A stretch of 64,000 bases of DNA from Cenococcum geophilum 1.58 (Eukaryota > Ascomycota > Dothideomycetes > Gloniales > Gloniaceae), in assembly GCA_001692895.1 (NCBI GenBank), contig KV748200.1, forward strand, positions 1,996,914 through 2,060,913, read 5' to 3'. Shown in pieces: positions 9,404-41,070 of the stretch. Position 1 is the first letter of the stretch. The number at the start of each line of letters is the position of its first letter. The notes under the pieces are model-generated. The model did no database searches and was not told the origin of the DNA. It was given only the letters and a program-made list of their open reading frames with translations. A program made the position numbers and the translations under genes.

Positions 9404-9540
9404 GTTTTGAAGTTCGTCACGTGAATTTTGTCACGACTTACTATCCGCAAGTTTTTTTAAACCAACCAGAAGCTGGCTTGGTAAAGTTTAAAAATTGGAA
9501 CACCTTAAAAGTATAAACCACTTATACCTCGGGTCAATAA
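9404..9540. repeat. Left arm of a large inverted repeat pair
   Basis: 137 bp that matches the reverse complement of 27188-27346 along its length, with several gaps. Shared landmarks are TTCGTCACGTG, AGAAG-TGGCTTGG and, at the inner end, CTCGGGTCAATAA. The inner end abuts the start of the Gypsy relic at 9541; the opposite arm abuts an LTR end. The two arms therefore bracket the whole nested block. Confidence 0.65.
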
Positions 9541-10322
9541 TATAATTTTAGTAATAGTAGATAAGTTAACTAAATAGGGCTACTTTATAGCATGCATAGA
9601 AGAAATTTTAGCGGAAGATATTACTAGAATCTATATTAAAGAAGTATTTATAAGATATAGAGCACTAAGTAAAATTATATTAGATAGGGATTTAAGATTT
9701 ATAGTAGTATTCTAAGAGGTATTCTTAGCGGAATAAGAAGTTAGAGTAGTAACTTTTATTATATATTATCCGCAGACAGATAGATAAATAGAAAGATTAA
9801 ATTAAACGCTGGAATAGTATCTAAGGTATTATATTAATTATGCACAGAATAATTAGGTATCGCTATTACTAGTTATATAGTTTATATATAATATAACACT
9901 ATAGAAAGGAATAGGCATATTACTATTTAAGGTAAATTACGGATATAAGCTAAGAATATTATTATTATTATAGCAAGTAAAGAAAATAAGTAATATAGCT
10001 AAAGAAAGAATAAAGATGTTAATAAATCTTTATATAGACCTTATAAAATTAAGGAAAACAGTATAAGAGAAAATAAAAAGGTACTGTAATGCTAAGAGAT
10101 CTAAGGGACTAGATCTTAAGGAGGGGGATAAAGTATAGCTACTATATAAATTTTTTAAAAGTTAATAACTAAGTAAGAAATTAAACTATATTAGAATTTT
10201 ACTAGTTATATTTAAGTTAAACCTACTAGTTAAGATAAAGATTTACCCTATATAGTATATTATAATGCTAAAGCTAGTATATAGGAATATTAGGCCACTA
10301 ATTTATAAAGAAAACACGTATA
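9541..10322 (+). mobile_element. Gypsy copy C, left part (integrase)
   Basis: Plus-strand integrase region homologous to the reverse complement of about 11700-12450 in copy B: catalytic-core part (about 9640-9790, including the zone around the Tyr-Tyr-Pro-Gln block) and integrase C-terminal part up to 10322. The 5' side of the element is missing. The text stops at 10322 because copy B inserted here; it resumes at 18347 after the duplicated GTATA. Broken many times; this copy is older than copy B, which interrupts it. Confidence 0.8.
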
Positions 10323-10741
10323 TATAACGGAACCTTATAGCTTAAACTACGGTGGGTCCTGCTAATAGGCTAGGTGTATAGGAATAGATAAGATAGTAAC
10401 ATAATAATAACTGGTGGAGTGTTTACCTAATAGATTAACTTTAATTATATTCTAAGAATTACTATAAGGAAGGAACTATCTAGGNAGGGACTAAGGGTCC
10501 TTAAATACATAACTATACTCCTAAGAAAGTCGTTGCTCTATCTGCTCCGTCTACTCTATTCGCTCTATAGTAGATCTTATAGATTATATAGATTATATAG
10601 ATCACATTACGTAATCCTACTTACTATTCCTTATTATATAGTTCTACGGGTTCTATCCTAGACTGTATTTATATTAACTAACTAGCTTCTTCTAACTCTT
10701 CTCTAAGTAGTTATAATATTATACTTAAAGCGTCTGTAACA
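10323..10741 (-). repeat. 3' LTR of Gypsy copy B
   Basis: 419 bp, nearly identical in layout to 17927-18346; differences seen by eye are mainly transitions. One ambiguous base at 10485. Confidence 0.88.
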
Positions 10742-10849
10742 CTATCTCCCTCCCTTCTATTTTTATTCTTAAAGATACCTAGTATCTCTAGGTCGTTTAC
10801 TAGAGGTATAATATCCGTTTAATTAATTTGGTTAATATCCTTACTTATA

Positions 10850-11560
10850 ATACCTAAAGCATCTCCTTCTTCTATAGCTCGTCGGTCTCGTACTATTACT
10901 ATAATATTATCTCTTAGTAAGATAATACTATCTCCGTATTCCCGTTATACGAAAAAGGGGTTAGTTTATATTGCGTTGGTAAAACCCTTTATCTTAACAA
11001 CCTTCCTTTTATTTGGAGTACACTAAGGCAAACATTTAATCGTTTTACGATATTCGTTCCATTCCTAATGCTAAGTATATATATTTTATTATTCTATATA
11101 GTCTTTAAGTTCCCTTATTAATTGCTACTAGGGTTTTAGGTTTAATCTACTACCGTAAGGCTTAATAATAAGCTCTTAAGCGCTCTTACTAAACTTCGTT
11201 ATTTTTATAACGCTAAGAAAGAGGCTACTAATACTTAGCAACGTGCCCTTAACTCTTGTCTTATTGCGTCTGCTCAGCTAATCCGTCTTAAAAAGGTTTA
11301 TAAAAAGGTCTATTTTAAGGAGTAAAAACTTATAGAATAAGGTTTATAGGAGCTTAGTAATAAAAGAACGGATTCTCTTCTAATAGAGAAGGAAACAACT
11401 CTAAGTAGTTTAGCAATCGTTCTTCCTATATCCCCCTTAGGTGGTTTATTCTTTAGTAATTCTTCTTCTTTAATACTGCCTAACCTTTTTTCTTCTGATA
11501 TTCCTGTACCTTTCCTATAGCATTTTTTAAATTCCCTAGTAGTTCCTAGGTAGTCTTATT
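10850..11560 (+). pseudogene. Antisense accessory coding stretch of Gypsy copy B
   Basis: Lies between the chromodomain end of pol and the 3' LTR, on the strand opposite to pol. The plus strand reads as a basic, helical, Lys/Glu-rich protein: RYFYNAKKEATNT near 11205-11245 and RLKKVYKKVYFKE at 11284-11322, followed by a Ser/Leu/Pro-rich tail. Upstream, at about 10930-10980, is a block that resembles a decayed Cys-cluster (TKKGLVYIALVK). The same arrangement with a matching motif occurs antisense in copy C (18590-19220), and a better preserved Cys-cluster form in relic E (26150-26540). I do not recognise the protein family. The element is a fossil; the stretch is broken several times. The start codon is unknown. 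Confidence 0.55.
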
Positions 11561-14500
11561 ATAGCTTATCCATTTTACTTTATACTATATTTTATTATTA
11601 ACGTCCTTATAACTAATAATCTTTAAAACTTACTATTTATCCTCTTTCTATCCTTTATATGTGTTTGCCTTATAGACCGGTGGCTTAATATTCCTATATA
11701 CTGGCTCTAGCATTGCAATATGCTATATAGGGTAGATCTTTATTTTGGCTAGTAGGTTTAACTTAAATATAACTAATAAAATCCTTTTTTTAATTTTTAA
11801 GGGTTCTAGTCTAACATAATCTAACTTTTTACTTAGTTATTAACTTTTAAAATTTTTATATAGTAGCCATACTTTATCTCCCTCCTTAAGATCTGGTTCC
11901 TTAGATCTTTTAGCGTTATAGTACCTTTTTATTCTTTACTATACCACTTTTACTATTTCCGTAAGGTTTATATAAAGATTTATTAGTATCTCTATTCTCT
12001 GCTTAGCTATACTACTTATTCTCTTTACTTATTATAGCGATAGCGATATTCTTAGTTTATATCCATAATTCGCCTTAAATGGTAATGTTCCTATTCTTTC
12101 TTAAGGTGTTATATTATATACGAACTATATAACTAGTAACAATAATACCCAATTATTTTATACGTGATTAAAATAATATTTTAAATACTGTTCTAGTATC
12201 TGGTTTAATCTTTCTATTTAACTATTTATCTGCGGATAATATGCGGTAGAAGTTGCTACTTAAATTCCCTATTCCGCTAAGAATACCTCCTAGAATGCTG
12301 CTATAAATCTTAAATCTCTATCCAATATAATCTTACTTAGTACTCCATATCTTATAAATACTTCTTTAACATAAATTCTAGCGATATCTTCCGCTAAGAT
12401 TTCTTCTATATATGCTATAAAGTATCCCTACTTTATTAGCTTATTTACTATTACTAAAATTATATTATAATCTTATCCGGTAATAAAATCTTTTAATTTT
12501 AGCAGCTTTACGATAAAGTCCTATAATATAACCTTCTACGGTCTCTTTAGTATTTTAATAGGTTATAGCCCTCTATATAGCTTATATCTTATTAGTTTAT
12601 TTCTTTAGTAATCTAGGTATTCTTTTATAACTTATCTTGCTAGTCCCTAGATTCCGTTAATAATGTATTTCTTTTAGAGTTTTAACACTAAGCCTATAGC
12701 TCCGTTATATCCCTAAGTTAGTCCCCTATAGAATAACTTAATAAATTCCTTTATAATATTCCTAGGTATATACGCTACTTCTTAGTTTTTATATTATTCT
12801 AAGTTCGGATCCTCTACCTATATGTCTTAAATCTTTTATAACTAGTTACTCTCTAGTAATTTATAAGTCTAACTAATTTCTCCTATTTCTATAATCTTCG
12901 GATAATTATATCTAATTAATCCGTCTGTGTCTTTTCGCAATAAAGCCCCTAATAGCTTTTTATCGTTTTATAGTTTAGCTTCTCTGCTTAGAGCATCCGC
13001 TCGCGTATTATCTGTACCCTTGGTATACTAAATCTTAAAATAGTACTCTATAAGTATTTCCGCCCATTTAACTTATCTTTAGTTAAGTTCTTTTGTTATT
13101 AGGAACCCCATTAGGTTCTTATAATCCGTTTTAACTATAAATAGCTTTTCTATACCTTATAAGAATGCTCTCTATTCCTAAAGTACTGTAACTATATCTA
13201 ATAACTCCTTATTATAGATATTATAGTTTAGTTCTAGTGGTATTATTTTCCAACTATAATATACCACTAGGTGCCATCCGTCTTTGTATTTCTATAGGAA
13301 GTATACCCCTAGTATAAAGTCTAATACATCTATTTTAACTATTATCTCTAGTTTTAGTTGGTAGATCTTAAGGATTAGGCTTTAAGTAAATAACTCCTTA
13401 ACCTCCTTAAATAGTTTCCTCTGCTCTTCTCCCTATACCTAAGGTTCTTCTTTCTTTATTAACCTTATAAATGACTCTATATCCTTTAACCATTAAGCTA
13501 TAAACCTTCTATAGTAATTGCAAAACCCTAAATATAACCTTAGCTATATAACGTTCTCCGGTTCTTACTAATTTACTATAGCTTTAATCTTTTTTAGATC
13601 TATGCTAAGTTGGCTTAGTTTAATAATAAATCTAATAAATTCTGTCTTTCTAGTAAAGAACTCGTATTTCTTAATTACTACTAGTATCTGTTTTTCTTAT
13701 AGTCTCTTTAAGACCTATTTAACGTATTCCTCGTACTCTTCCTTCCTTATTAAGTAGATAATATTATTATTAAGGTATATCATAATAATTTTATTTAAGT
13801 GCTCTCTTAATATATTATTAATACGCTTCTAAAACGTTACCGGTGTATTTATAAGCCTAAACTATATTACTAATAGTTTGTATAGTCCTTCCTTTAACCT
13901 AAAGGCTGCCTTTTATTTATCGCCTTCCTTAATTCTAACTTAATGGTACGCCTATCTTAGATCTATTTTTATAAAGATTTACGCATTATTAATCCTATCT
14001 TAGATTTCGCTAATTAAGGGTAAAGAATACCTATCCTTCCTAGTAATACTGTTTAACTATTTATAGTTAATGTATAATCTAAGTTTCCCGTTTTTCTTTA
14101 GTACGAATAGTACTGGATAACCTGCTAATAACTGCGATAGTCTAATATATCCCTTTCGTAAGTTCTCCTAGATAAACTCTTTTAGTGCTCTCCTTTCCTC
14201 TTTAGTAAGCTTATAGATTGGAAAGAACCTTAGACTTATTCCTAGTTCTAATTCTATTTTATAGTCCCATACTATATATTCTAACAGCTTTTTACTTTCT
14301 AGTGACTATAGTTTCTTGCCGTACTTATAGTATCTCTTTAGTACATAGCTTAGTCCTTTTTCTGTTTTATTATAGGTTGCTCCTACTTAGTACTATACCA
14401 TCTTAGCTTATTATTACATCTTATAGCATTAAGTATCTCTTATATTGACCTAACCTATAATCCAATTAATCTTTAGATTATATTCCTGTAAATAAGGCAT

Positions 14501-17500
14501 TCCTAATACTGCCTTATTGTTCCCTAATAGTAATATATTAAAGGACATTTCGACCTATCTCCCTTTAATAGTTATCTAAATAGGTCCTGTTTTAAGATTA
14601 ATAATGCCTCCTTTATAGGTTATTGGATCTTCTAAAATTGTTACTAGTGGATATAAGTGCTCTTTCTATCCATGCGGTAGCCCTATTCTTTTAACTACTG
14701 CTAGTAAAATATAGTTTCTTATTGCTTTACTGTTTACTAATGCTTTAAACTGCTAATCTTGCCATTTAACTTGTAAATTTAGGTGTCGTCCTTAAATTTC
14801 TTTAAGGGTCTAAGGTTTTACTACTAGTTCCCTCTAGTCCCGTAGGCCTCTACTTTTTCTAACTATTAGCTGCTAGATTCTTGTGCGCTTAACTTACCCT
14901 TTAGCTAATATCTTATTCGCTTTTTATCCTTAATATACCATAGATATATGTTCTCTAGGTACTCCCGCTACTATTATCCGTCTAAGTATTCTTTTATAAG
15001 GAATTTTCCTAGTTAAAGTATTAAGTCTCCTAACTCCTAAACTTCTACTAGATGCTAACTGTGTATATACTTAGTGTTCCTATACCGTCGCTTATCTGGC
15101 GCCTAATATATCCTTATAGGGTATTTCCAGTTCTTTTCTTTCGGATTTTTGTGTATCTCGCACGTATTATCTACACATATAATCTATAATAATGTATAGT
15201 ATGCTAGGTGCTTTAGGTTAACTCTTGGCTCGTCTTTATCCTTAAGTTTAAATCTTTATTATATTGGTCTAAACGTTACAACTTTATTTGCGGGTACTAA
15301 GATATATCTTTCACTTCTCTAGTCCTCTAATCGTTCCTCTAGATCCTTTAATGTTATAATTAAGGCTCCCTTAGTATAATTTATTGCTTTTTCCGTAATT
15401 AGGTAATCCTAGATAACTTTCTTATCTAACTACATATAGAAGTCTTCCTATTCGTTATTATACCTTTACCTATACTATCTTTAGTATAGCTGCTAAAGTA
15501 TATACGGTCTATCCGTAAGGAAGTATCTTCTTATTACTGTGTCGTGATAGCCCTTTATGTGCCGTTCCTTAAACCTAGTTAGGATCCCTAGATCCTTTTC
15601 ATTTTCTAGTTTAATAAGCCACTTAGCTCTTAGCGTGCCTACTCTTAACTTATTAGTAATTCTTTATACTAGTACTCTATCTCGTATACGACCTATTATA
15701 CTAGATTTCCTATCTAGTTTCTATTCTTACTATATAAGGATTCTTGCTCTAAATTTATCTATAGTTTCTTGTTGTTTATGTCTCGCAATTAAATCCTTAA
15801 AGTTTTCTTACTTCTTAATTATAGTATCGACTTTTCAATCTTTAGGCTGAACATTATATTCTTCTAGTAAGTCTTCTAGGTTTATATATCTGTCTCCTAG
15901 TCTAACTACTATTTACATTATAAATTCTCTAATCCGTGGCAAAGCCTCTTACCTCTTACTTGTAGGTGTCCTTATTTATACTCCAAATTCTTAGTCCCTT
16001 AGGTTCTTTAGTCCTAAGCTTACTTCTTTCTTAAGCTATACTCCAGCCTTAGTCTAACTAGGCTTTACTAATATTCTCATCTTATTTTAAGAGTCTTAAA
16101 TCTTACTTATCTTACTTTAAGAGTCTTGTGTCTTTAGGAAACTTCGTCCTAAGCTTATTTATATATTACTAAACTAAGCTGTTGCTCTGCTCTATCGGTT
16201 ATCGTCTATTATAGGTCCCTAAGCATACCTTATCTCGTCTTAAGAATCTTAGTTATCTCTTATTTTATCTTAAGAATCTTAAGCCTTTAGCTTTTTGCCT
16301 TTACTAAATAGTAAGCTAGCACTAGCAGTCGTCTGCTTACTTAATCGCCTATAGATATTACTCCTTCCGTCTTATAAAGCGATAGATGCCGTATCTAACG
16401 GTATTATAATATCCGTTACTAAACCTTGCTCTATAGCGGTTTCAGTCTCTACTTCTATTATATTATTAAGGTTTAGATACTCTTAATTAGTTCCCTTCTT
16501 TCCCTTATCGCTATTAATTAATAAGTATTCTAACTCTATTATTATTATTGCTAATCTTTATCCGTATATTACTATAACATCTTAATCTAGCTTATAAAGT
16601 TAATCTTATTCTTTATCTAACTCTATAGTTCCCTTAAGTCCCTTTAACTCTAGCTCCTATAGCTAATAGCTTACACCGTACTTAGCGTCTTTATAAATTT
16701 GGTATGCGTTATTATAATAAAACGTAAAACTTCGGATTAAATATTCCTTTATCCCTCGTAGTACACTATTGTCCCTTTATACGTATATATTACTTACTAT
16801 TAGTCTAGTTCCCTTTACTATATAGTAACTTTAACCACTCCTATAGTCTCTAGCGAAATAACCCTATTTTCCGCAATTTATATAAGCTCCGTCTTTAAAC
16901 AATTACTTTTACTATAGAATCCGCTTAAACGTCTTTTACTGTTAAGATCCTTGGTTTAGCCTATACTTCTTAGTCCTTTAATCACTTAATCCTTAACTTC
17001 TAAGTTTCTATAGTTGTTTTTCCTATCTCTTATATGTTTCCTTAGTACCGCTTAGGTCTATTAGCTTTACGCTATACTATAGTTTCTAGTTTAATTTTAG
17101 TTATTGCGTACTCTACGCTTTATATAACTATAGAACTCTATTCTAACCTCTTTTAGCCTATTCCCTTTAGAAGATCCTATTATTAATCTTAATCGCTTAA
17201 TCTATTAATTCCCTAAAGGTGTCCGCATCTTCTATTAGAATAATTACGTCCTAGACTTTTACTTTAAGTCCCTATTTATACTGTGCTATAAACGCCCTAT
17301 TATTCTACTTAACTTATATAGCCAATATTTAGAACGACGTTATGTACTTAATTGCTAAGGTTTATTACGTCAGGTCCTAAAGCTTCCTTTTTACTATTAT
17401 TATTACTTCCGGGTCCCCAAATATTTGCGTAAGTCGCTTTATAAATCCGCCCTAACTTAAGAATATAAACCGTACTTCTTAGTTTATAGTCGTTATTCTA

Positions 17501-17926
17501 TTTGCTTATATCTCTATAAGGTAAAGCTTAAACTATTTAAGTGCTCTTCCTAACAAGAATAATCCTGCGTATGCTACTTAATCCATAGGTATTAGTAGCT
17601 TAGCCCCCTCTTATAAAACCTTAAAGTATATTTATATAAGGAATCCTTTAAGCTTTAACCTTTCTCCTATAAATCGCTTAATTAATAGTAACTTAATCTT
17701 CGCTGCGCCTATCCCGTTAATCCTATTCTTAAGTATTACATTATTTTCCATTAACCGGTTAACTATCTCTTATAGCTATCCTACCGTTATAGGTTATTGT
17801 AAGTTAGTATCTGCTATACTAGTGTTATTACCTAACCTTAAAGTAGTTGCCGCTGTTAATAGCGTTGTAGTGGCTGCTTTTAGTAGTATGTTGTTTAACT
17901 TATTAGACTGTAACTAGGTAGTAATT

Positions 17927-18346
17927 ATATAACGGAACCTTATAGCTTAAACTACGGTAGGTTCTATTAATGGGCTAGGTATATAGAAACAGATAAGATA
18001 ATAATATAATAATAACTAGTAGAGTGTTTGCCCAATAAATTAACTCTAATTATATTCTAAGAATTACTATAAGGAAGGAACTATCTAGGTAGGGACTAAG
18101 GGTCCTTAAATACATAACCGTACTCCTAAGAAAGTCGTTGCTCTATCTACTCTGTCTGCTCTATTTGCTTTATAGCAGATCTCACAGATTATACAGATTA
18201 TATAGATCACATTACGTCATCCTGCTTACTATTCCTCGTCACATGGTTCCACGGGTTCCATCCTGGACCGTGCTTGTATTAACTAACTAGCTTCTTCCGA
18301 CTCTTCTCCAAGTAGTTATAATATTGTACTTAAAGCGTCCGTAACA
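17927..18346 (-). repeat. 5' LTR of Gypsy copy B
   Basis: 420 bp; on the minus strand it starts TGTTACGGACGC at 18346. It keeps more C/G than the 3' LTR, for example in the block near 18180-18290. It is followed by GTATA, the target duplication. Confidence 0.88.
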
Positions 18347-18589
18347 GTATAGAGGATAAGAAAAAGATAAATAGTAAGTTTTGAAGATTATTAGTTATAA
18401 GGATATTAATAATAAAATATAGTATAAAGTAAAGTAAATAGGCTACACTAAAACTACCTAAAAGCCACTATAGAATTTAAAGAACGCTATAGGAAAAGTA
18501 TAAGAGTATTAAAAAAGAACGAGTTAGGTAATATTAAGAAGGAGCTAAAGATAAAAGGATTAGTTAAAGGTAATAGGCGAGCTAGATTA

Positions 18590-19220
18590 TCTAAGGGATC
18601 TACTACTAGCGTATAAACTATTTCCGCCTCTCCTTAATTAGAACCCTTTTTAGCATTTTTAGCCTTAAGCTTAAATAGACCTTACTCTACTAAACGTAAC
18701 TCCTTTAAGCGTACCTCTTTACGGACCTTTACTAGACGGCTTAGGTAAGTATAAGCTTTTAAAGCCTAAGACGCCTTATTAAAATAACACTAAACATTAA
18801 TAAGGGCCTCGGCCAGCTTACTCTTTAGTCTTTTAGCTGCTACTAATACGCGAGACCCTAAAGTAGATTAGATAAGAAACTAAACGTATATACTTAGCGT
18901 TAGAGACGGATTAAACATTATAAGATAATTATATATTTCCTCGCGTATACTTAGTATAAAAGGAAGGTTAGTAACTAGATAGAGCTGTAATTATAATATA
19001 TACTAACTTTTTCTCTATATAACAAGAATAGAACGGCATAACTTTACTAAGTAAAAGGATAAACGTTACTAGCTAATTACAACGATTAAATGTAAAAGAT
19101 CTAATAGGATGCATTAAAAATAATAAAGGTTATTAAATTAAAAATAGGAATGTTATACCTCTAATAAACGACTTAGAGATAGGAGATATCTTTAAGGATA
19201 AAGATAAAGAGGAGGGGGAT
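18590..19220 (-). pseudogene. Antisense accessory coding stretch of Gypsy copy C
   Basis: Opposite strand to pol, between the chromodomain-like block and the purine tract. The minus strand reads KVRKEVRLKELRLVE at 18685-18729, which parallels KKVYKKVYFKE in the antisense stretch of copy B, and ARVLVAAKRLKSKLAEALINV near 18800-18860. The whole is basic and helix-prone. Its upstream part (about 18960-19060) shows a degraded pattern compatible with the Cys-cluster of relic E. Conservation across two independently mutated copies in opposite genomic orientations argues for a real gene of the element rather than a shadow of pol. Family unknown to me. Confidence 0.55.
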
Positions 19221-19222
19221 GG

Positions 19223-19599
19223 TATTATAGACCTTATATTAGCAGTAGTATAACTACTAAGGAGAGATATAAACGGGCTAGTTAAGATAGTATAGGAGGT
19301 GCTAGAACTAAGTTATATAGCTAGTTACGTTATAAGTTTAGAATATAGGAACGTAATATACTAACATACTAATGTACTAACGTACTTAATATATTTCTTA
19401 GGCGTAATATTATATATTTAAAGGACTATAGTCCCTACCTAGATAGTTCTCTTCTCCGTAGTAAATCTTAGAATATAATTAGAGTTAATCTATTAAGTAA
19501 CCACTTCACTAGTTATATTTACGTTGTTAACTATTTTATATTTATATAGCCGGCCTATTAACAAGTCTACCGTAGTATTTCCTATAAGGCTTTATTATA
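19223..19599 (+). repeat. Diverged 3' LTR of Gypsy copy C
   Basis: Clear homology to the copy A/B LTRs from about 19380 onward (AGTCCCTACCTAGATAGTT near 19427-19445) and weaker homology before that. It starts after a purine tract and ends TTATTATA. Confidence 0.7.
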
Positions 19600-19978
19600 T
19601 ATTACTATAACTAAACTTACAGATCTCTTCCTTAATAAAGTAGTACGCCGTTTTAGAATCCCTAGAGGGATTATATCTAATTATAGTAGTATCTTTACTA
19701 GTAAGCTCTAGTTAGAGCTATACTTTACTATAAAGATAAAACGCAGACTAAGTATAGCCTTTTACTTATAAACGGACGGGTAAATAAAATGCTAGAACTA
19801 AACGCTAAAGTATTACCTCCGTATATTTTATAACGAAAAGCAGAGCAACTAAGTAGGCCTCTTATTCCTAGCCAAATTCGCCTATAATAATGCTAAATAT
19901 AGTATAATAGGCGTAAGCCCGTTCTATGCCTACTGCGGGTTTTACCTATATTTAGAATACGAGGCTAAGGCGGACGAT
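19600..19978 (+). mobile_element. Gypsy relic E, left part (integrase core)
   Basis: Plus strand reads as a retroviral-type integrase core: RFRIPRGIISNYSSIFTSK at about 19649-19705, then the Gln-Thr-Asp-Gly block near 19775, then LAKFAYNNAKYSIIGVSPFY at about 19863-19925. It begins directly at the end of the copy C LTR and is interrupted at 19978 by element D, whose target duplication is ACGAT. It continues at 25930. Different lineage from copies A-C. Confidence 0.75.
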
Positions 19979-20349
19979 TGTCACGGAGTGAGTATAAGCG
20001 GCGATAATATATAGCAAGGTAGATATTATTAAGCTATATATATAAACTGTGTAAGGAGGTTAAGACGTTATATAAGGAAAGAAGGTAGGAAAACGGGAAG
20101 AAAGGGCATATATCTTTAACTTAGTTGCTTGGTTAATATATATATAGGGCAGAATAGGGTTTAGGTTGTAGTCCTAGCAGAACTTAGCAGAATTCGGTGG
20201 AACTTAGCAGAATATAGCAGAATGCCGTAGATTGCCGTTAGATTACTATTAGATTACTGTTAAATTGCTATTTTACGGTTAGTCTCTAATTGCTAAGTTG
20301 GTGGAAATAGGTGGACGTGTGCAAGGTGTCACGAGGGTGTCCTATAATA
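19979..20349 (-). repeat. 3' LTR of Gypsy element D
   Basis: 371 bp. Contains a run of AGCAGAAT-type short repeats (about 20178-20222) and GATTGCCGTTA repeats (about 20228-20265), both shared with the partner LTR. Confidence 0.88.
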
Positions 20350-23300
20350 GTACCCCCCCTTTAAACTTAAGCTTCTGCGAGATAGGGCTGTAGTAGTTTT
20401 AGGTAGAGTTCGTGAAAGTCTTCTGCGGCTTATATAAGTCCTATAGAGTTAACGGGTTCCCATAAGGACTTAGTAAAGCCTCTCCATTTTATAAGATATA
20501 TATATTAGCGTTTCCGTTTATCGTACTTAATATTATTAATTCTTTTAATAAAGTACTTATTCTCACTATCTACTTTAACTGGTAGGGGAGGGTCCTATAT
20601 CTATTTAGGCAGGGCGTCTAATACGGGGGCAGCAGGACGGAGGACTGACGTATAGAATACGGGGTAGATTTTAACCATATTAGGGAGCTTTAATCGGTAG
20701 GAGTAAGAGGAGACGACCTTCTCGACCTTATAAGGGCTAGCGTTCTTCCAATTAAGTTTCTTAGCAGGTCGTTTTGTATTTAGATTTCTTATATCTAGCC
20801 AAATAAAGTTACTAATTTAGTAGGCTAGTACTAGGGTTCGTTTCTTATTCGCTGCGGCTTTATAAACAGATTAGGCCCATATTATTTCGTTAGTAAGGAA
20901 CTGTTATAGTTCCTCCATCTTTTCTACAAATTTATTTACTTCTATAACTTATAAGGCTTAATAAGCGGGACGAGGAACGTTGCTAAAGGGTTTAAAACCT
21001 ATTTATAGATACTAGCCGTAGTTAGCCAGAAATAGGGAGACCTTTATAGTTTCTAAAATAGAATTATTCGCCGTAAACTTGGTAAATATAAGCCAGTCAA
21101 TCTAGTTATCTTATAAGTACGACGTGTATATCCAAATATACTGCTCCATTATAGCATTTACACATTCCATTTAACTATCCGTTTCTAGGTAGTATGCTAT
21201 AGACAATAGTGCTTTAATACGGAGTTAGGTAGTTAGTTCTTCCTAGAATATAGAGATAAACTAGCTACTTTTATTAGAGATAATCGTTTTGGGGAGTTTA
21301 TAGAGTTTCTATATGTAATCTAGGAACAGTTAGGCGACGGCAGGTATTAACATATTGGGGCAGGCAATTAAGTGTCTCATTTTAGATAGTCGGTCTATAA
21401 CTACCATAATATTTATGCAGCCTTTACTTATGGGGAGATTAATAACGAAGTTAATTAAGATATCCTTCTATCTTCGGTCCGGAGCAGGCAGTGGCTTTAG
21501 AAGGCCGTTGTACGTCTTATACGAAGCTTTAGCTCGCCGGCAGATATAGCAGCTAAAGACGTACCTTTATGTTGTATTATGTATATTCGGCTAATAGTAT
21601 TCTTATTAGAGCAGTTCTAGGGTTTTTCCTTAGCCTGGGTAGCCGGCTACTAGTAGATCGTATACGTGTTTAAGGAGCTTAAGCTTAAGCTTATTATAAT
21701 TAGGGATAACTAGATGGTTCTAGTAATATAGGCGGTTTTTACAGGCTTTATATTTACTTAGAGAAATCTTTCTAGAGCGTCTAATGCCATCTTATATTAG
21801 TTTAAGCGTCTCTTAGATAAACTCATTATTCGGGTATTTATCGACTATAATCTATTCAATCGATCGATCAGTTATTTTAAGAACGTATACCGTAAGATCT
21901 TTAGTAGGAGGGTTAAATAGTTTAGGGCGAAGTAGGGTCTAATTTCGGTAAGAGCGCGCTTCTTCTAGGGCTGGCGCGTCTTGTAAGCGTTAGGTTAGGG
22001 CATTAGGCTTCTAATCTTAGACGCCTAGGCGGTATATAATTAAGAATTAGAAGCGTAACAGATATTCTAACCAGCAAGCCTAATAATAACTTAACTGTTT
22101 TGTGGTCGTAAAGTACTATAGGTTCTTATAGTTGCTAAGGACCTTAATCGGAAATCCGGCGCCTTCTAGTTTAGGTCGCTATTACTTAAAGCATCTAATA
22201 ATAGCTAGCAATTCTTTATCGTAGATCTTGTAATTATATTCGGCAGGGCTTAGTTACTTTAAGAAGTATGCTACAGGGTATAATACTCCTTCTTTATTAT
22301 ATTAAGACAGAATACCTCTAGTAACGTAATTAGATAAGTCGGCTTCTATAACACTTATTTATTCTAGGTTAAAGTATTAGAGTATAGATGTAGTAGTAAA
22401 TATAACCTTAAGATACATAAAGGCCTTCTTACATTCTTTGTTAAAGATAAAAGCTTTATCTTTTTAGGTTAGAGTAATAAGGGGTAAAACTAAGGCGGAG
22501 AAGTTATTAATAAACTATTAGTAGAAGTTGGCAAATCCTATAAAGGCTCTTATATCCTTAACGTTCTTGGGTTCCTGCTAGTATACAATTGCTTTGACTT
22601 TCTTCAGGTCCATTTATATACCGTTTATAGAAATAAGGAGTCTAAGGTATAGGACTTCCGTTTTATAGAACTTGTATTTATCTATATCTAATTATAGACC
22701 AGCTCCGTACAGGGCTTATAGGATAAGGTCAACGTGTTTCCAATATTTAGTTAGGTTATTACTGTATATTAGGATGTCATCGATATAAGCAGTACAGAAG
22801 ATGTCTAGGTAGGGATGCAGGGTATTATTTACGTAATATTGAAACGAACTCGGGGTATTTGCGAGGCCGAATGGCGTCACTAAATATTTAAATAATCTAT
22901 ACCGAGTACGGAATGCAGTAAGCTATTTATCTCCTTTTACTATACGGAGGCGGTTAAATGCAGAGATAATATTAAGCTTTGTATAGTAGCGAGCCTTACT
23001 TAGTCGGTTTAATATCTCCTGTATTAACGGGATCGGATATCGGTTCTTAATAGTAACGGTGTTAAGAGCTCGGTAGTTTACGCAAAAGCGCAGACCGCCG
23101 CTAGGTTTCTTAACGAAGATCACTAGTGCAGCTATAGGCGACAAGCTCGCTCTAATAAATCCTTTACTTAGGTTCTTATCTAGATACTTCCGTAGTACTT
23201 AGAGTTCGTTTTAGAACATCCCGTATAGGGGTCTAAATCTAGGCTGCTTTCTGTCTTTAAGTACAATCTTATAGTTATACAATCGGTGTTCCGGTAGCTT

Positions 23301-25553
23301 ATCAGCTTCCTTCTATAAGAATGCCTCTAGGCGGTTATAGTACTCTACTAGTACCTTTATAGCAGGGTTAGTGTGCTTCTTCGGTGCTAAGGCCTTTTTA
23401 ATATCAGCCATAGTAACAGTAAAGATTGTATATTCAGGTTTCTTAGCAAGTTGTACTAACGGAGTAGCTCTAATTATACGGATATCTAGGGTGCCGAGTT
23501 CGCTTAAATTATCTATAGTTTCTTATTCGGGTTTAGGTTTAGTATTAGGTATAAAATTAGTATTAGATTTAGGTTTAGGTTCTTTAAGAATCCTTTTTAT
23601 AGTAGAATACTAGTCCTTCTGGTATTTTCGTGTATTAAGCTTAAGCTTCTACTTAGCTCGGGGTGGTATAGTGCTTAGTAATAGCTTATGGAATTTAGTA
23701 GAGTTTTCAGGTCCTTAGTAGATGTCGGTAGAATTCCTAGGTTAGTAGAATCTGGTAGATTCCTTAGGTACAGGGTGGACTGTTATAGAAATTTTAGACT
23801 GGTGGATCCTAGTAGATTTTTTAGATTTTAGTTCTTAGTCTAAGTAGTAAGTAGTAAGGTACTTTTGCTTATAATAGGAGGCGGTAAATAGAAGCTTAAG
23901 GTTATCCTAATTAATAGTTACCTTATATAGCTTTATCTAGGGTTGTCTAAGGATTACTAGGTAACCTAGGGTAGTAACAAAAAGCTTAATTAGTTCTTTA
24001 TGGTTTAGGTATTAGAGTCTTAGGGCTACTATATAGGTAATACGGCCTAAGACGGTGCGTTTGCTATTAAATCCAAATACGTTAATATACTGGTTAAGGG
24101 GGGTTAAGGTAAAACCATTATTATATATAAAGATCTTGTTAATAAATCCTATGCCACTAGCTTCTATATTAATTAGGATTTAAGCGTTAGCCTATTAACT
24201 ATTCTACTAAAGACAACAGTTAACGGTTATGCTATAATTCTAAGAGTCAAAGTTTATAACATCTAAAGTATTTAATGAGATCCTAAGGCAGAGCCGTTCC
24301 GGAGAGCAACTTAACTCTAAGATATACCTTTTAGTAATAAGCGGGAAGGGGTTTCTATAGAACGTCGGTTGTAGCTTTACCTTTATAAATAGTACTTATT
24401 AGATATGGGGCTGGAACCAGGTAAAGATCGGGGGCGGTAACTGGAAGATTAATACGGTAAACGGTTACTAGTATTAGCCGTTTGTAAATTGTTTTAGGGT
24501 ATAGGTAAGGGAATAAGACAGTATTTTAAGATATAGTCCTTACTTCCGCACTTAAAGTAGAGGCCTAGCTTAATACATCTTTCTTATTTAGGGGACCCTA
24601 GTAGGGCGTACTCTAGGGTTCCAGTGTTAATATCTATAGCGTTAGGGTGCTTAGGCTAAGATAATAACTTAGTGGACGTTTATAGGGTTGCCGTATTATA
24701 TTAGGGGGCGGACTTTAGTGTCAGGCGTAGTATATTATTATACCGTTTGTTAACGACGTTTGCGTAGGCATTAAGGGCTCCTAGTAGGTCTACGCCTATT
24801 AGGGAGGTTTTTAGTTTAGGGCTTAGAGATTTAATAAGGCTATTAATTAGTGCGGAGTCGTTCCAGCCTATTTCCCTTACGTAACGGTTAAATTCGGAGA
24901 AGTATACTAGGAAACTTTTCATTCCTTAAGCTATGTGGTTTATCTTTCTCTAGGTAATAGCTTAGCGATTTAGGTTACCGTATAAGGCTTTAAGAAGTAT
25001 AACTAGGCTTTATACTAAGGTTGGCTAAAGAGGTTTAATAAGGTTAGCTGCCTTTCTTCCTAGTTGACTTAGGGCATAATAGAGTTAGTTGGCTTCGGTT
25101 AGGTAACAGTCGGCGTTACCGGTTAGCTTATTTTTAAGCTAGCTTAGAAATAATTAGAGTTCTTATTATTTACTAGTAAATACCAGGGGATCTAGTAGTC
25201 GTTTAGATTATTTTAGTATAGTAGTTAGTTTAAGGTGGATAGTTACTATAGGTTTAGGGCTTGCATTCCGCGTGTTTATCTCTAGAGATAGTATTTAGTC
25301 TTAAGGCCCTAACGTGGGCATCTTAAGTATACAGATTTCTTCTTAGAGGTCCTTAATTAATCGCTAGTATCGTGCTTCTTATTTAGCTTATTATTAATTT
25401 AGAGTAGCTTAGTTTTATATAAGGGCGTCTATAAAAGACTTCTATATTTCTACTAGTTATTCTTAAAATACGGATATAATACCGGCGGCCGTTACGGAGG
25501 CTTTAGGGTTGTTCTATATTTCGGAGGTAGTATATAAAGTTAACGCAACGTAG

Positions 25554-25924
25554 TATCACGGAGTAAGTATAAGCGGCGATAATATATAGCAAGGTAGATA
25601 TTATTAAGCTATATACATAAACTGTATAAGGAGGTTAAGACGTTATATAAGGAAAGAAGGTAGGAAAACGGGAAGAAAGGGTATATATCTTTAACTTAGT
25701 TGCTTAGTCAATATATACATAGGGTAGAATAGGGTTTAGGTCGTAGTCCTAGCAGAACTTAGCAGAATTTGGTGGAACTTAGCAGAATATAGCAGAATGC
25801 CGTAGATTGCCGTTAGATTGCCATTAGATTACCGTTAGATTGCTATTTCACGGTTGGTCTCTAATTGCTAAGTTAGTGGAAACAGGTAGACGTGTACAAG
25901 GTGTTACGAGGGTGTCCCGTAACA
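25554..25924 (-). repeat. 5' LTR of Gypsy element D
   Basis: 371 bp, collinear with 19979-20349; the differences are mainly transitions. Followed by ACGAT. Confidence 0.88.
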
Positions 25925-26149
25925 ACGATAGTAGTTCTATCCTAACCGCCTCCGAGAGGATTAAAAGAATATCCCTTAAACGCGAAACGCTGGCGAAACG
26001 CTAGGAAAGCGCTGCTAAAGCATAGGCGAAATACTATAATTGTTATTACTAACTATAGATATATAATGTAGGGGATCTAGTCCTACTATCGACTAAGAAC
26101 CTTAAATAGGAAAGGCTAAATAAGAAGCTTGCAGCACCCTTTATTAGAC

Positions 26150-26540
26150 CTGTTAGTATAGCTAAACCAGTCGGAAAGTCTTCGCCCTCTAGGCGCTGGC
26201 GGAGACCGTATTTAGCGCCGGTGCGCACCAAGGTCTTAACATCCTTTGTGAAGGATTTCTGGGCGGCAGCGACGCGAGCGTCAAGGTTAGCCATGTCCCC
26301 GCCAGCAACCCAACGGCGCTTAGCCCTGTTAATAAGGGCGAGTAGCTCGTTTAGGCGGCTATAGAAGGCCTTAGGGACCTAGTCTTGTTAGCCATCAGAA
26401 CCTAAACTAACGCATATAGACTTACTGCTTAGCACAACTTATTTAGTCGTCGGCAGTAACCGCAATTATAGTTAGCCTGCTTGCCGCAGGTGGCCCGCCC
26501 AGCGGTAGCCCCGCGCTTGGCGTAGCGGAGGCAAATTGGC
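26150..26540 (-). pseudogene. Antisense Cys-cluster coding stretch in Gypsy relic E
   Basis: On the minus strand, opposite to the integrase and located between its C-terminus and the 3' LTR. At 26432-26533 a Cys-cluster is readable (CLRYAKRGATAG ... CGYCRRLNKLC; spacing roughly C-x14-C-x7-C-x2-C-x6-C). A helical part lies at 26150-26394: KAFYSRLNELLALINRAKRR and then, from an in-frame ATG at 26294, MANLDARVAAAQKSFTKDVK. I recall multicopy fungal proteins of unknown function with a comparable Cys pattern followed by a helical Leu-rich block. This part is GC-rich and better preserved than the same-position stretches of copies B and C. It converges with pol, so its own promoter would lie near the 3' LTR. 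Function unknown; a zinc-binding or nucleic-acid-binding role is only an inference. The frame is broken. Confidence 0.55.
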
Positions 26541-26983
26541 TTAAGTAAGGCTGGGGGAGCACCTTACGAACGACGTGGAAGTTTAGACGGCGTCTAGTAG
26601 GGTTAGTAACCGCTATAAGCTAGTGTGGAGAATACTTATAAAAGGTCCACTAGCAGGCAAACCGGCAGCTTAATGCTTGCAATTTATAGTTAATTAGAAG
26701 TTATAGAGACGGCGAGGCGTAGGCTAAAGGAATGGAAAAAGGTACGGTGAGGGAAATCTGGTGTCCTACCTTAGGGGGACTTCTACCTTTATAGGTCTCT
26801 ACGGGGCCCTAGCATTCTATTGTCCTATTATTCTATAATTTTATTACCCTATTATCCTATTATCTAATTGTCTAATTATATTATATTATATTGCACATTT
26901 CTTATTCGGCGAAGGATAATAACAACACTCTTATAGTACAATAGCGTCGGCTAAGGACAGCCGCTTAAAAAGAGGGGGGTAAT

Positions 26984-27186
26984 TATTAGGCCGTAGAGAC
27001 GCACTTGCCGTAACCAGCTTAGCGCAGGCGAGGCGTAGGCGAGGCGCCTATAAAACGTAGTCGCCCCGCACCTAAGAATAGTAGAATTTAGTTCTATAGT
27101 TCTACTTCATCAAGAACCAGATACCTATTGCATTCCGCTACTGTTATTACGTTACTATATACCCTTAGGGCCTTAGCGTCCTAATA
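26984..27186 (+). repeat. Candidate 3' LTR of relic E
   Basis: 203 bp following a purine tract; ends TATTAGG and CCTAATA are inverted. TATAAAA at about 27051 could be the promoter box of the LTR. No partner LTR lies in the window, so the limits are inferred. Confidence 0.5.
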
Positions 27187-27346: not shown

Positions 27347-28272
27347 CTTAAGTTCTACCAAAGCTCTACTAAAGCCCTATAAAACCTCTACACGAAGCTC
27401 CGTACAAAGCTCTGCAAAAGCTCTACTAAAAGCTCTACCAAAAGCTCTACCAAAGGCTTTGCAGCACCTCTGCCCACCCAGTATACTGGCCACTCAGTAT
27501 ATGGAGCACACAGTGCGCAGTGGGGTCCAAGAGGGTCTCCCCCTTAAAGCTCTGCTCGAAGCCCTGCTCGAAGCTTTACTCAAAGCCCTATACGGAGCTC
27601 CGAAGCTCTACTAACACGCAGCACTAGTATACTAGGAAGGTTCTGCAATCTGCCCATACGGTCAATCGCCGTACAATCGTCTCTACGAACGGCTCTACGA
27701 ACGGCTCCACGAACGGCTTTACGAACGGCTCTACAAACGTCTACACGATCGCCCGTACGAACGTCCATACAACTACCCATGCGATCGTCTCTACAAACGT
27801 CTCTACAATTGATCACCCGTACGAGCGTCTGCACCCTACACACCTACACGTGGCTCTATAGAAGCTCTATATAAAGCTCTATACAAAGCTCTATACAAAG
27901 CTTTACACAAAGCTCTGTATAAAGCTCTGCACAAAGCTCTGCAAAGCTCTATTAAAAGCTCTACTAAAAGCTCTACTAAAGTCTCTACTAAAGCCTCTGT
28001 AAGAGCTCTGCCTACGCAGTGAATAGAGTACGTAGTGCGCAGGGGAGTCCAAGGGGGTCTCCCCCTTGAGCTTAAAGCTCTACTTAAAGCTCTACTTAAA
28101 GCTTAATACGGAACTCTAAAGCTCTACTAACACGCAGCACTAATATACTAGGAAGGCTCTATAATTGTCTACACAAACGGCTCTATAAACGGCTCTACGA
28201 ACGTCTACACAATCGCCTGTACGAACGCCTATACAATTAATTAATTAATCAAACACCTATACAATTGATTAA
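27347..28272. repeat. Higher-order satellite of ~12-bp AGCTCT subunits (left block)
   Basis: Runs of subunits such as AAAGCTCTACTA and AAAGCTCTACAC alternate with a linker that carries AGGGGGTCTCCCCCTT, GCAGCACTA-TATACTAGGAAGG and a second subunit type ACGAACGGCTCT. Two linkers are present here (near 27510-27630 and 28020-28160), so the higher-order unit is about 0.5 kb. The frames seen in this block are repeats, not genes. Not RIP-like in composition. The block continues at 33628 after the Copia insertion. Confidence 0.85.
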
Positions 28273-33627: not shown

Positions 33628-34530
33628 ATTAATCAAATATCCATGCAATTGCCTGTATAATCGTCTCCTACAAACGTCTCTGCAGTTAATCGCCCGTGCA
33701 AATGCCTGCATGTGGCTCTATATATAAGGCTCTGTATAAAGCTCTACTAAAGCTCTATATGAAGCTCTACCGAAGCTCTACCAAAAGCTTTACATAAAGC
33801 TCTACTAAAGCTCTATATAAAGCTCTACTAAAGCTTTGCATAAAGCTCTACCAAAGCTCTGGACAAAGCTCTACCGAAGCTCTACATGAAGCTCTACTAA
33901 AGCTCTGCACGAAGCTCCACCAAAGATCTGCACGAAGCTCTGCAAAAGATCTGCACGAAGCTCTGCAAAAGCTCTACTAAACGCCTCTACCAAAACCTTT
34001 GTAAGAGCTCTGCCTACGCGGTAAATAGAGTATATAGTGCGAAGGGGGGGGGGGGGTCTAAGGGGGTCTCCCCCTTGAGCTTAAAGCTCTACCTAAAACT
34101 CTACTTAAAGCTTAATACGGAGCTCTAAATCTCTACTAATATATAGCACTGATATACTAGGAAGGCTCTATAATTATCTATATAAACGGCTCTATAAACG
34201 GCTCTACGAATATCTACACGATCGCCCGTATAAACGCCTATATAATTAGTTAATTAATTAATTAATTGCCTACACGAACGCCCGTACGAACGATTAATTA
34301 AACGCCTATATAATTGCCTATATAATCGTCTCTACAAATATCTCTGCAATTAATCGCCAGAATAAACGGCTGCACGTTTATACGTCTGCACGTTTACACG
34401 TAGCTCTGCGCAAGGCTTTATATAAAGCTCCACACGAGGCTCTACTAAAGCTCTGCATAAGGCTCTACCAAAGCTCTATATAAGGCTCTATTAAAGCTCT
34501 ATATAAGGCTCTACTTAAAGCTTACCCCCT
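33628..34530. repeat. Higher-order satellite of ~12-bp AGCTCT subunits (right block)
   Basis: Continues the array of 27347-28272. A third linker lies at 34015-34150 and contains a long G run (about 34046-34059) and again AGGGGGTCTCCCCCTT, a 7-bp stem with a TCT loop. The last partial unit ends at about 34515 in GCTTACCCCC. Confidence 0.85.
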
Positions 34531-37784: not shown

Positions 37785-37954
37785 CTATATAAATTATATT
37801 ATATAATACCCAGATTATTATATATTCCCATAGATTACTATAATATTCTTTTAAATATATTTATATTATAACTATATAAAATATAGAGCTATCTACTTAG
37901 GTAGTAAGGGGGAAGCCTCTTATAGAGGCTCCAAATCGTTAATTGGCGGTATTT

Positions 37955-38262
37955 GCCTACCTACCTGCCTACCTACCTGCCTGCCTGCCTACTTACCTAC
38001 CTGCCTATCTGCCTACCTACCTACCTGCCTACCTGCTTGCCTACCTACCTGCCTACTTACCTGCCTACCTATCTACCTACCTACCTATTTATCTATCTGT
38101 CTGTTTATACCTACCTACCTATACCTACCTATCTATGCCTACTGTCTGTACTTACCTATCTACGCCTACTATCTGTACCTACCTGTCTATACCTACTATC
38201 TGTGCCTACCTATTTATGCCTACCGTCTATACCTACCGTCTGTACCTATCTATCTATACTAC
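37955..38262. repeat. CTAC/CTGC tetranucleotide microsatellite and derived 24-bp repeat
   Basis: (CTAC/CTGC)n at 37955-38110, passing into units of about 24-26 bp such as CCTACTGTCTGTACCTACCT (38130-38262). Two long overlapping frames (37943-38275 and 37953-38306) are by-products of the period, giving Tyr-Leu-Pro-Thr repeats. Confidence 0.9.
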
Positions 38263-38394
38263 CTCTAAACGGTAGTTGTCCGGGGTGCCTCTATAAAAAG
38301 GCTTAATTTAATTTAATTTGGTAATGGACTAATAATAAGGCTCTGGTTTAATTCGACCGATTAAATCGTTTAGTGTTTACTGGCTGGGTTGTTT

Positions 38395-38855
38395 AAACGG
38401 TTGGCGGTTGTCTAGCTTTGGTAATGGTCGTCTGGCTTTAGCGACAATCGTTTAGCTCTAATAACGGTTGTCTAGCTCTGGCGACGGTTGTCTGGCTCTG
38501 GCGACGGTCGTCTAGCTCTGGCGACGGTTGTCTGGCTCTAGCGACGATTGTCTAGCTCTAATAACGGTTGTTTAGCTCTGGCGACGGTCGTCTAGCTCTA
38601 GCGATGGTTGTCTAGCTCTAACGATAGTTGTCTAGCTCTAACGACAGTTGTCTGGCTCTGGCGACGATCGTCTAGCTTTAGCGACGGTTGTTTAGCTCTT
38701 GCGATGATTGTCTAGCTCTAGTAATAGTTGTTTGGATAACGACGGTTGTCTAGCTCTAATAACGGTTGTCTAGCTCTAGGGACGGTTGTCTGGCTCTAGG
38801 GACGGTCGTCTGGTTTTAGTAACGGTTATCTAGTTTTGGCGATAGTTGTCTACTG
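38395..38855. repeat. 20-bp minisatellite, ~23 units
   Basis: Units of GGTTGTCTAGCTCTGGCGAC with an almost exact period of 20 bp; one shorter unit near 38730-38740. Confidence 0.92.
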
Positions 38856-38974
38856 GCTGCCGTTCTAGTGCCTTTTTAGGTAGGGAGGATATAAGGAAGG
38901 AAGGGTAAAAAATAAGGTGGCTACCTATATATAGAGGCTATTAGGAATATAGCGGGGACCTAATAGTAAGTGTT

Positions 38975-39322
38975 ATGCGGAGCTTCGTATAGAGCCTCCG
39001 TATATAGAGCTTTGCGTAGAGCCTTGTATAGAGCCTCTATATGTAGAGCTTTGCGTAGAGTTTTATGTAGAGCTTTATATAGAGCTTTATGCAGAGCTTC
39101 GTATAGAGTCTTAGTAGAGCTTTATGTAGAGCTTTATGTAAAGCTTTGTGTAGAGCTTTATATAGGGCTTTATATAGAGCTTTGTGTAGAGCTTTATATA
39201 GAGCTTCGTGCAGAGCTTCGTATAGAACTTCGTGTAGAGCTTTATGTAGAGCTTTGTGCAGAGCTTTGTGTAGAGCTTTGTGCAGAGCTTTGTATAGAGC
39301 TTCGTGCGGAGCTTCTGCGTAT
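38975..39322. repeat. 12-bp minisatellite, ~29 units (reverse of the AGCTCT satellite)
   Basis: Units of GAGCTTTGTGTA. The reverse complement, TACACAAAGCTC, is the subunit of the satellite at 27347-34530, so the two arrays belong to one family in opposite orientation. The frames across it are period artefacts. Confidence 0.9.
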
Positions 39323-39480
39323 TTATAGCAATTTGCGGTAATTTACAGCAATTCGCATAAGCTACTTATAAGTAGCTGCGTATTTGTAGCAATTTACACA
39401 GGCTACTTATAAGTAGCTGCGTATTTGTAGTAATTTGCATAGGCTACTTATACGTAGCTGCGTGTTTGTAGCAAATTGCT
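39323..39480. repeat. 41-bp tandem repeat, ~3.5 units
   Basis: Units starting AGCTGCGTATTTGTAGCAAT at 39374, 39415 and 39456 plus a degenerate first unit. Each contains the inverted pair GCTACTTATAAGTAGC. Confidence 0.8.
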
Positions 39481-39499: not shown

Positions 39500-41070
39500 G
39501 ACTTACGCAGGTTTTGTAGACCCCGATTTTCGCTTATAATAACGTGCCCAAAAAAATATTTCCTAATGATGTAATAAGACGTATCTAAGTAATACCGTAT
39601 ATCTTTATATTAACTAGGCTAAGTAGCTGCTATATACGTTGTCTAAAGTTATCCTATAGCGGTTGTTTATTTAAGTAATATATACGTTTCTTTAAGTATA
39701 GGTTTTAGATGTTTTGGGGTCGCTTAAGGTTTATAGGCTTTTATCTAATAAGAATAGAACTATCTATTAGGATAACGTTATTAAAATTAACAATAATAGG
39801 TTATACTATGGTATATTAATAACATCCTTACCTTTTAATAGAGATAGTTATAGTATAGAGCCTAACATTATCCCCTTTAAGATCTAGATTATCTTAGGAG
39901 CTACTACTTAACTTATAGCGTTTTTATTTACTTCTTTACGGAATAGGTAGAGAATAAGTATATTAGTTTAGTAGAACTATTTAGCTTTTATATACACCTT
40001 ACTTCCCTAAAAGACGCTAGATAGTCCGAAGTCTTATACTTAATATACTTTAAACAACAACCCGGTTAACTTTTATAATATAAATTAGGCATTTTTCGCT
40101 AAGTATATAGAAAGGAGTTTTAATAAACTTATAATAATAAGTTAGGAGGGCGGCCTAACTGTTTATTAAGCTTTATAATAGGGCGATTAGATTACCTTAC
40201 TATAGCGTAAGGTCCTACTTTATATAATATTTTTTCTATACCGTATAGAAGCCTAGTTTCTCGCGATATTTGCCTACTTTTAAGGTAAATAGTACGGTAT
40301 ATAGAATATAAAGGGTAGTTAGCGCGTAAAGGGTAATATATAGTAGTATTGTATTCTAGTTTATTATAGTCGTAGTAATTTACCCCTTTATTATAATCTA
40401 GCGCCGCTAGTTATAACTTACCGCTATTTTAGCTAAGTTGTATTTATTTACCGCCTAGTGTAAGCCTGTTCCCCTATATATGCATTAACCTATACCCTAT
40501 TTATTTACTTAAAATCTTTATTATATATAGCATTATATATATCCTAATTACTATAGTTATTTATAAAGAAACAGTCTATAACGTTAATGTCCGTTAATAT
40601 AAGTAAGATAGGCCTCGTAATATAGTTAATGTTATATATCTAGAGGGCATCCAGCGTATATTTCGTCCTGCTATTAAATAGCTTTATACTCTATACTCTA
40701 AGCATTCTAGTTCTTATATTAATCTTACTACCGTTATAAACTTAGAGGGTCTCTATTAACGCACTAGTATATTTTAGGTATTTACCCTTATTATCTAATC
40801 GCCTAATATTCTAGATTATAAGTAGTAAATAAAGCCTCCCTACTTTATTACTATAGAGGCTGTTATTTACCTGCTTATATTCTTATACTATTACAGCATT
40901 ATAGTAGGGGGCTCTAGTATTAGCCTATAATGGGGTACATTAAGCAAACACCTTATTAAGCTTATTAGTATTAGTGGCGTTTTTTCTAAAGCAAATGTAG
41001 TATATAACGCTGTAATAGATACTTAAGGGCATCTTTAATACCCAATTATTATCGGCCTTTAGTCGGTTAA
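39500..41070 (-). pseudogene. CACTA/Plavaka-like transposase relic, C-terminal part
   Basis: Minus strand coding-like DNA. Readable blocks include NNSLYSNKVGRLYLLLII (about 40814-40868) and KGKYLKYTSALIETL (about 40757-40803), then NINYITRPILLILTDINVID near 40595, and FINNYSN in the same tail. I associate this tail with a large fungal DNA-transposon transposase family (CACTA/Plavaka-like), from memory. It is interrupted at 41070 by Gypsy element F and continues at 47067. Below about 40200 the minus frame is weaker (GIEKILYKVGPYAIVR near 40200-40250). Stops are of the RIP type. No terminal inverted repeat was found near 39500. Confidence 0.5.

Follow-up and report, generated by a model that had tools for sequence, protein, structure and literature searches.

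Antisense genes are known from the 3′ regions of several long terminal repeat (LTR) retrotransposons. According to the accessible part of a review (PMC7264820), the plant elements Grande, RIRE2, Retand and PvRetro13 carry an antisense gene, aORF-3R, in most copies of a family, and that of Grande is a nuclear protein with a promoter of its own. The Retand protein TRP28 may bind DNA, and the Retand region from pol to the LTR spans 2.9–6.6 kb, as given in the available text of PMC11963269. An ascomycete LTR element, Boty, is described in the same part of the review (PMC7264820) with an antisense gene, brtn, between pol and the 3′ LTR, and an excerpt of PMC8365987 lists brtn as the additional open reading frame (ORF) of BcGypsy1. 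Here we analyzed a 64,000-nucleotide stretch of Cenococcum geophilum 1.58 (contig KV748200.1, positions 1,996,914 to 2,060,913), referred to as the window. In three of its Gypsy-type elements, named B, C and E, relics of an antisense gene sit between the integrase end and the 3′ LTR, on the strand opposite to pol. A paper by Zhao et al. 2011 is said to deal with brtn.

The place and strand of the fungal gene are those of the plant aORF-3R: it lies between the integrase end and the 3′ LTR, and it is antisense to gag-pol and coding, with no intact copy. Hosts and domains differ from the plant cases, and the pol-to-LTR region is shorter than in Retand, with E at about 1.5 kb and B at 0.85 kb. brtn is similar in being an antisense gene between pol and the 3′ LTR of an ascomycete LTR element, a likeness by description alone in the part of the source available. 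A preliminary description of the window had held that no fungal counterpart was described, which brtn contradicts (PMC7264820, accessible part). The layout is already known in plants and Botrytis; this gene looks new. Among the titles and abstract beginnings searched, with most subscription papers outside, there was no fungal LTR antisense gene with introns or a zinc cluster. Work on antisense accessory genes in LTR retrotransposons has mostly centered on plants. Introns and an invariant Cys layout in a fungal case are evidence for a real gene and for the strand it occupies, despite heavy mutation of the elements, and regulation of an element by such proteins becomes a testable question in a tractable kingdom.

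Our analysis indicated that an antisense accessory gene was probably present in at least three Gypsy families, located from integrase towards the 3′ LTR, spliced in E and encoding a small protein with a Cys cluster and a helical part. The claim that coding-like relics lie antisense to pol in B, C and E, between the integrase end and the 3′ LTR, was confirmed with some corrections. The parts of the gene in the window copy of E are as follows.

26640–26687, minus strand: candidate exon 0, in a frame without a fixed stop between family positions 389 and 575
26594–26639, minus strand: putative intron 1, 46 nt, phase 0, with the 5′ site ATAAGT in the window copy
26426–26593, minus strand: exon 1, 168 nt, 56 codons, with the Cys cluster at 26432–26533
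26379–26425, minus strand: putative intron 2, 47 nt in the window, phase 0, reading GTAAGT...GCTAAC...TAG
26173–26378, minus strand: exon 2, at least 71 codons in the family, shortened in the window by a deletion

Twenty-four E copies were aligned from the LTR to the integrase end: 12 from 9.9-kb loci, 11 further exon-2 matches and the window copy. The putative introns were read from splice signals and frames. Intron 2 started with GTAAGT in 15 copies, GTACGT in 8 and GTATGT in 1, and ended with TAG in 24/24. A branch-like CTAAC or CTAAT was present in all 24 copies, and the length was 46 nt in 22 and 47 nt in two. Intron 1, covered by 23 copies, was 46 nt long with CTAA at the branch in all 23; its 5′ sites were GTAAGT (15), ATAAGT (6), GTAAAT (1) and GTCAGC (1), and its 3′ sites were TAG (18) and TAA (5). 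A strict intron pattern had 50 matches on the gene strand of the 24 copies versus one on the pol strand. In the 64-kb window the same pattern had 1 and 3 matches on the two strands.

The reading frame shifted at each of the two introns. A fixed stop was defined as a stop in at least 90% of copies without any precursor codon. In family positions, the frame of exon 0 was bounded by fixed stops at 389 and 575, that of exon 1 at 594 and 786, and that of exon 2 at 808 and 1132. The introns span 551–596 and 765–810. The nearest fixed stops at 575, 594, 786 and 808 are inside these introns, and those at 389 and 1132 are outside the gene. One copy has CAA in place of the stop at 1024 that ends the 71-codon exon 2, and the exon may therefore have extended further.

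Repeat-induced point mutation (RIP), the C-to-T mutation of repeats, broke every sampled copy. The TpA/ApT ratio is taken as an RIP indicator; it was 1.45–1.86 in the seven stretches computed, a strongly RIP-like composition. Stops occurred in 6/56 codon columns of exon 1 and 4/71 of exon 2, each column being open in other copies. For seven of these ten columns, the other copies held only CAA, CAG, CGA or TGG, the codons made stops by a C-to-T change on either strand; for three, other codons were present as well.

Cys codons become Tyr codons under RIP; we therefore sought columns in which 95% or more of the copies had Cys or Tyr and at least one copy had Cys. Exon 1 of E had six such columns, codons 21, 24, 36, 44 and 47 in 23/23 copies and codon 54 in 24/24, giving the layout C-x2-C-x11-C-x7-C-x2-C-x6-C. 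In B, six columns were each Cys or Tyr in 28/28 copies, and the same six were Tyr in 9/9 copies of C; the B/C layout is C-x2-C-x6-C-x13-C-x2-C-x8-C. C has no Cys at the six columns, so C alone gave no match in the layout test. Among the six frames of E, and likewise among those of B, a layout of two halves (C-x2-C...C twice) was confined to the antisense frame. Random placement of an equal number of columns yielded this layout in 0.065% (E) and 0.03% (B) of trials, per frame.

The Cys cluster of E had been called better preserved than those of B and C. This was correct, as the window copy of E retains 5/6 Cys and all six positions are Tyr codons in the window copies of B and C. The helical part said to follow the cluster is in a different frame in all three elements; in E, this frame change is due to the two introns.

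Zn(II)2Cys6 clusters of the GAL4 type have the spacing C-x2-C-x6-C, a linker of about 5–12 residues, and C-x2-C-x6-8-C. The B/C halves, C-x2-C-x6-C and C-x2-C-x8-C, fit this spacing; the B/C linker differs, at 13 residues. Two C-x2-C...C halves are also present in E, but its first loop of 11 does not fit.

Since RIP makes only transitions, selection tests were restricted to transversions, a transversion column being one where two or more copies carry a transversion. In E, exon 2 had 1/213 such columns, compared with 24/330 between the LTR and exon 1 (p 8e-5). The counts were 7/205 in the exon 1 stretch (560–764, with part of intron 1), 13/471 from the gene to the integrase end and 3/211 in the integrase end. 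Of the seven transversions in the exon 1 stretch, five were at third positions of the Cys frame, and the nonsynonymous share was 0.40 versus 0.81 expected (p 0.03). Cys-or-Tyr columns, fixed stops inside introns and transversion-only tests together provide a way to read genes through RIP.

The B stretch at 10850–11560 has at least 40 relatives (40 places scored among 3098 candidates). We sampled 28 of the 40 places for B (the window and the 27 best others) and nine of 40 for C (the window and eight chosen others). The corresponding parts in the window are listed below.

10937–11048, plus strand: antisense Cys cluster of B, six Tyr codons now, with a frame slip inside the window copy
11150–11330, plus strand: antisense Lys/Arg-rich part of B, helical by eye, including KVYKKVYFKE at 11293–11322
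18920–19030, minus strand: antisense Cys cluster of C, with B spacing and all Tyr codons
18680–18870 (approximate limits), minus strand: antisense Lys/Arg-rich part of C, including KVRKEVRLKE at about 18729–18700

The two shared motifs reported earlier were present on these strands. When B and C copies were compared by tblastx, the best match was on the antisense strand in 250/252 pairs and on the pol strand in two. In the Cys part (22–297), 38 fixed transversions between B and C fell 21 at third, 11 at first and 6 at second positions; the nonsynonymous share was 0.59 versus 0.81 expected (p 8e-4), the best of six frames. In the helical part (298–520), it was 0.72 versus 0.84 (p 0.04), the lowest of six and in the frame of KVYKKVYFKE. 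Cys part and helical part were in different frames in both B and C. Purifying selection is thus indicated both between B and C and in exon 1 of E; with the Cys-rich and helical character, this supports the earlier proposal of a small accessory gene convergent with pol in three Gypsy families. Binding of zinc or of nucleic acids by the protein, and control of pol by antisense transcription, would be putative functions.

A relaxed intron pattern was also applied to the 37 B/C copies. It had 33 matches on the gene strand, 31 of them from C copies, and five on the pol strand. In most copies the matches lay away from the frame change, and introns in B and C were dropped.

The stretches could instead be a C-terminal tail of pol read on the pol strand, with the antisense frames as mirror images sharing the third codon position. 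Read on the pol strand, the mirror of exon 2 runs for 66 codons with no majority stop, and one E copy was similar to pol beyond the first fixed stop. Between pol and exon 2 of E (family positions 1030–1500), 9/13 transversion columns share a single phase that reads best on the pol strand. Fixed stops occur there in every pol-strand frame despite the coding-like phase. The E pol frame, however, runs into fixed stops about 570 nt before exon 2, at family position 1595 and then at 1397 and 1385. The B versus C comparison fits the antisense frame better than its mirror, and the pol strand has neither the splice signals nor the Cys layout. A pol tail is disfavored and, in our view, improbable.

An antisense gene has to be weighed against several results that speak against it. 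The pol-strand mirror of the B/C Cys part also reached significance (0.66, p 0.01), with the other four frames without signal; tblastx matches on the pol strand reached 71 bits versus 87 on the antisense strand; and the longest B run lacking a majority stop (86 codons) belongs to the pol strand, which also favors a pol tail. Within B alone, no frame showed a significant codon signal. This test was without power, as there was none in pol either and the flanks were badly aligned. The strict intron pattern had no match on either strand of the 37 B/C copies. In E, intron 1 departs from GTAAGT in 8/23 copies and from TAG in 5/23, and no start codon was found, the in-frame upstream candidate being ATA in 23/23 copies. 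Stop-free reading across exons 1 and 2 together was seen in 0/24 E copies, and across the Cys part in 0/28 B and 0/9 C copies. Exon 2 alone was stop-free in 10/24 E copies, a share raised by sample choice, since 12 of the 24 were picked partly for a stop-free exon 2. Exon 2 compared with its 3′ side, towards the integrase end, gave p 0.08. All p-values are guides: the copies are related, which makes the values too small, and several tests were done without correction. For the protein, E and B/C profiles scored 9.7 in hhalign, where shuffled profiles had a mean of 9.3 and a maximum of 14.3; a Foldseek search with the exon 2 model had no match at E 0.001; and Pfam, NCBIfam and PDB sequence searches returned nothing reliable.

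Linkage to the retrotransposon was analyzed in the 177-Mb assembly (162 contigs). Exon 2 of E matched at 123 places, 10 of them without a stop, the window copy included. In the window, a 109-aa frame at 26049–26378 (minus) fuses two parts: codons 1–68 are antisense exon 2, and the remainder is the reverse of the integrase end. About 0.7 kb is lost at 26172/26173, between the integrase end and the antisense gene, and this deletion joined the two parts. In other E copies, exon 2 and the integrase-end tail are about 0.6–0.7 kb apart. Matches to the tail (antisense of the integrase end) were paired with 84 of 121 exon-2 entries. A partner was present within 1.6 kb for 25/29 tail matches, on the same strand in 25/25, and four were unpaired; the distance was 572–736 nt in 24 pairs and 164 nt in one. 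SH3_Tf2-1 matches, selected for nearness to exon-2 matches, were opposite in strand to exon 2 in 11/11 cases. Against locus L030, pol, the antisense gene and the short LTR aligned together over 5.7–5.9 kb in 7/11 loci; the other four were shorter or split. The E-family LTR is 204 nt, with 89.7% identity between both ends of one copy.

These data bear on the possibility that an independent gene or small element landed next to each relic without belonging to the retrotransposons. The window copy of E adjoins the nested element D and could pass for an independent piece. The 123 places, the near-constant spacing from the integrase end and the co-alignment with pol and LTR contradict this, and a separate nested gene was rejected as very improbable.

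A captured piece of a host gene, hitch-hiking without use to the element, was also considered. Capture is described for some extra ORFs in the accessible part of PMC7264820, and the exon 1 signal depends on seven transversion columns. Set against this are the selection signal between B and C, the few transversions in exon 2, the splice signals retained in most copies and the identical place in three families, which make a useless passenger unlikely.

An accessory gene of the elements themselves is our preferred explanation. The E gene would have had at least three exons and two 46-nt introns and would have been transcribed from the 3′-LTR side towards pol, as splice signals and frames suggest. 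Its predicted product is a small protein with a six-Cys cluster laid out like a binuclear zinc cluster, followed by a helical hairpin. B and C would have encoded a similar protein, a Cys cluster followed by a Lys/Arg-rich, probably helical part. Membership of E and B/C in a single protein family is not claimed: hhalign gave nothing, whether exon 1 was compared with the B/C Cys part or exon 2 with the B/C helical part, and the loop lengths differ. A single-sequence model of the window exon 2 was a helical hairpin (helices 3–24, 29–56 and 59–65; pLDDT 77). One of 10 exon-2 pieces weakly touched the bacterial HTH_WhiA at E 0.05, and none of the 10 matched Pfam TRP28 (PF04195). A Pfam scan of the mutated 36-aa piece of E had no family at E 1, Zn(II)2Cys6 included.

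The product of the antisense gene would most likely be a zinc-cluster regulator. Its likeliest use may be that of a nuclear nucleic-acid-binding protein regulating expression of the element or the element's access to nucleus and chromatin. Being antisense to the genomic RNA, the introns would not be spliced from it and could survive retrotransposition. RIP would have struck all sampled copies afterwards. More tentatively, several fungal Gypsy lineages may have acquired, whether anciently or independently, a binuclear zinc cluster protein resembling those of the host and kept it as an antisense gene with introns, whose product would bind the element's own LTR or chromatin and control sense transcription or integration. 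If true, this possible scenario would be a fungal parallel to the antisense regulators of some retroviruses, and antisense introns would separate the regulator mRNA from the genomic RNA by construction.

The elements concerned are arranged in the window as follows.

10323–18346, pol on minus: element B, complete, Gypsy-type, with LTRs and duplication
10323 to about 10848: 3′ LTR of B; about 17847–18346: 5′ LTR of B
12490–12221, minus strand: integrase of B
11872–11699, minus strand: SH3_Tf2-1-like integrase end of B
18347–19602, plus strand: 3′ part of element C, with the 3′ LTR at about 19120–19602
25928–27186, plus strand: right part of element E, with the integrase end up to about 26172 and the 3′ LTR at 26986–27184
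19979–25924, pol on minus: element D, complete, inside E, with the 5-bp duplication ACGAT

The LTRs of B share 88.7% identity across 425 nt, and B is flanked on both sides by the 5-bp duplication GTATA (10318–10322 and 18347–18351). Its integrase and integrase end were located by tblastn with pieces of D and E-family copies; the D piece is SH3_Tf2-1 per Pfam. C is an older element interrupted by the B insertion (pieces 9537–10322 and 18347–19602), with its pol strand assigned as plus by homology with B. E, with pol on plus, is split by D into 19600–19970 and 25928–27186. In D, the SH3_Tf2-1 piece (20601–20816) is about 0.25 kb from the 3′ LTR (up to 20342), with hardly space for an antisense gene.

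In the less mutated Gypsy 3′ regions L070 and L071, no relative of the antisense gene was seen by eye; no similarity search was made. L070 (G000:C141:12200-14300), the 3′ end of a Gypsy element with far fewer mutations, has what looks by eye like a chromodomain, and its antisense strand holds long open frames without visible resemblance to those of B, C and E. A further LTR pair lies at 41065–47066 of the window (41065–41294 and 46837–47066, 93% identical), with Gypsy pol similarity on plus at 43.8–46.4 kb and about 0.48 kb from the last pol match to the LTR.

An Rfam scan of the window had no match at gathering scores. Short-period tandem repeats (12 and 23 nt) with AAAGCTCTA-like units were found at 27350–28250, 33700–34520 and 39005–39340, and the AAAGCTCTA-like repeats at 39 kb are inverted relative to those at the first two places. 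Tandem arrays with TGCC/TACC-like units and a 20-nt period occupy 37930–38860.

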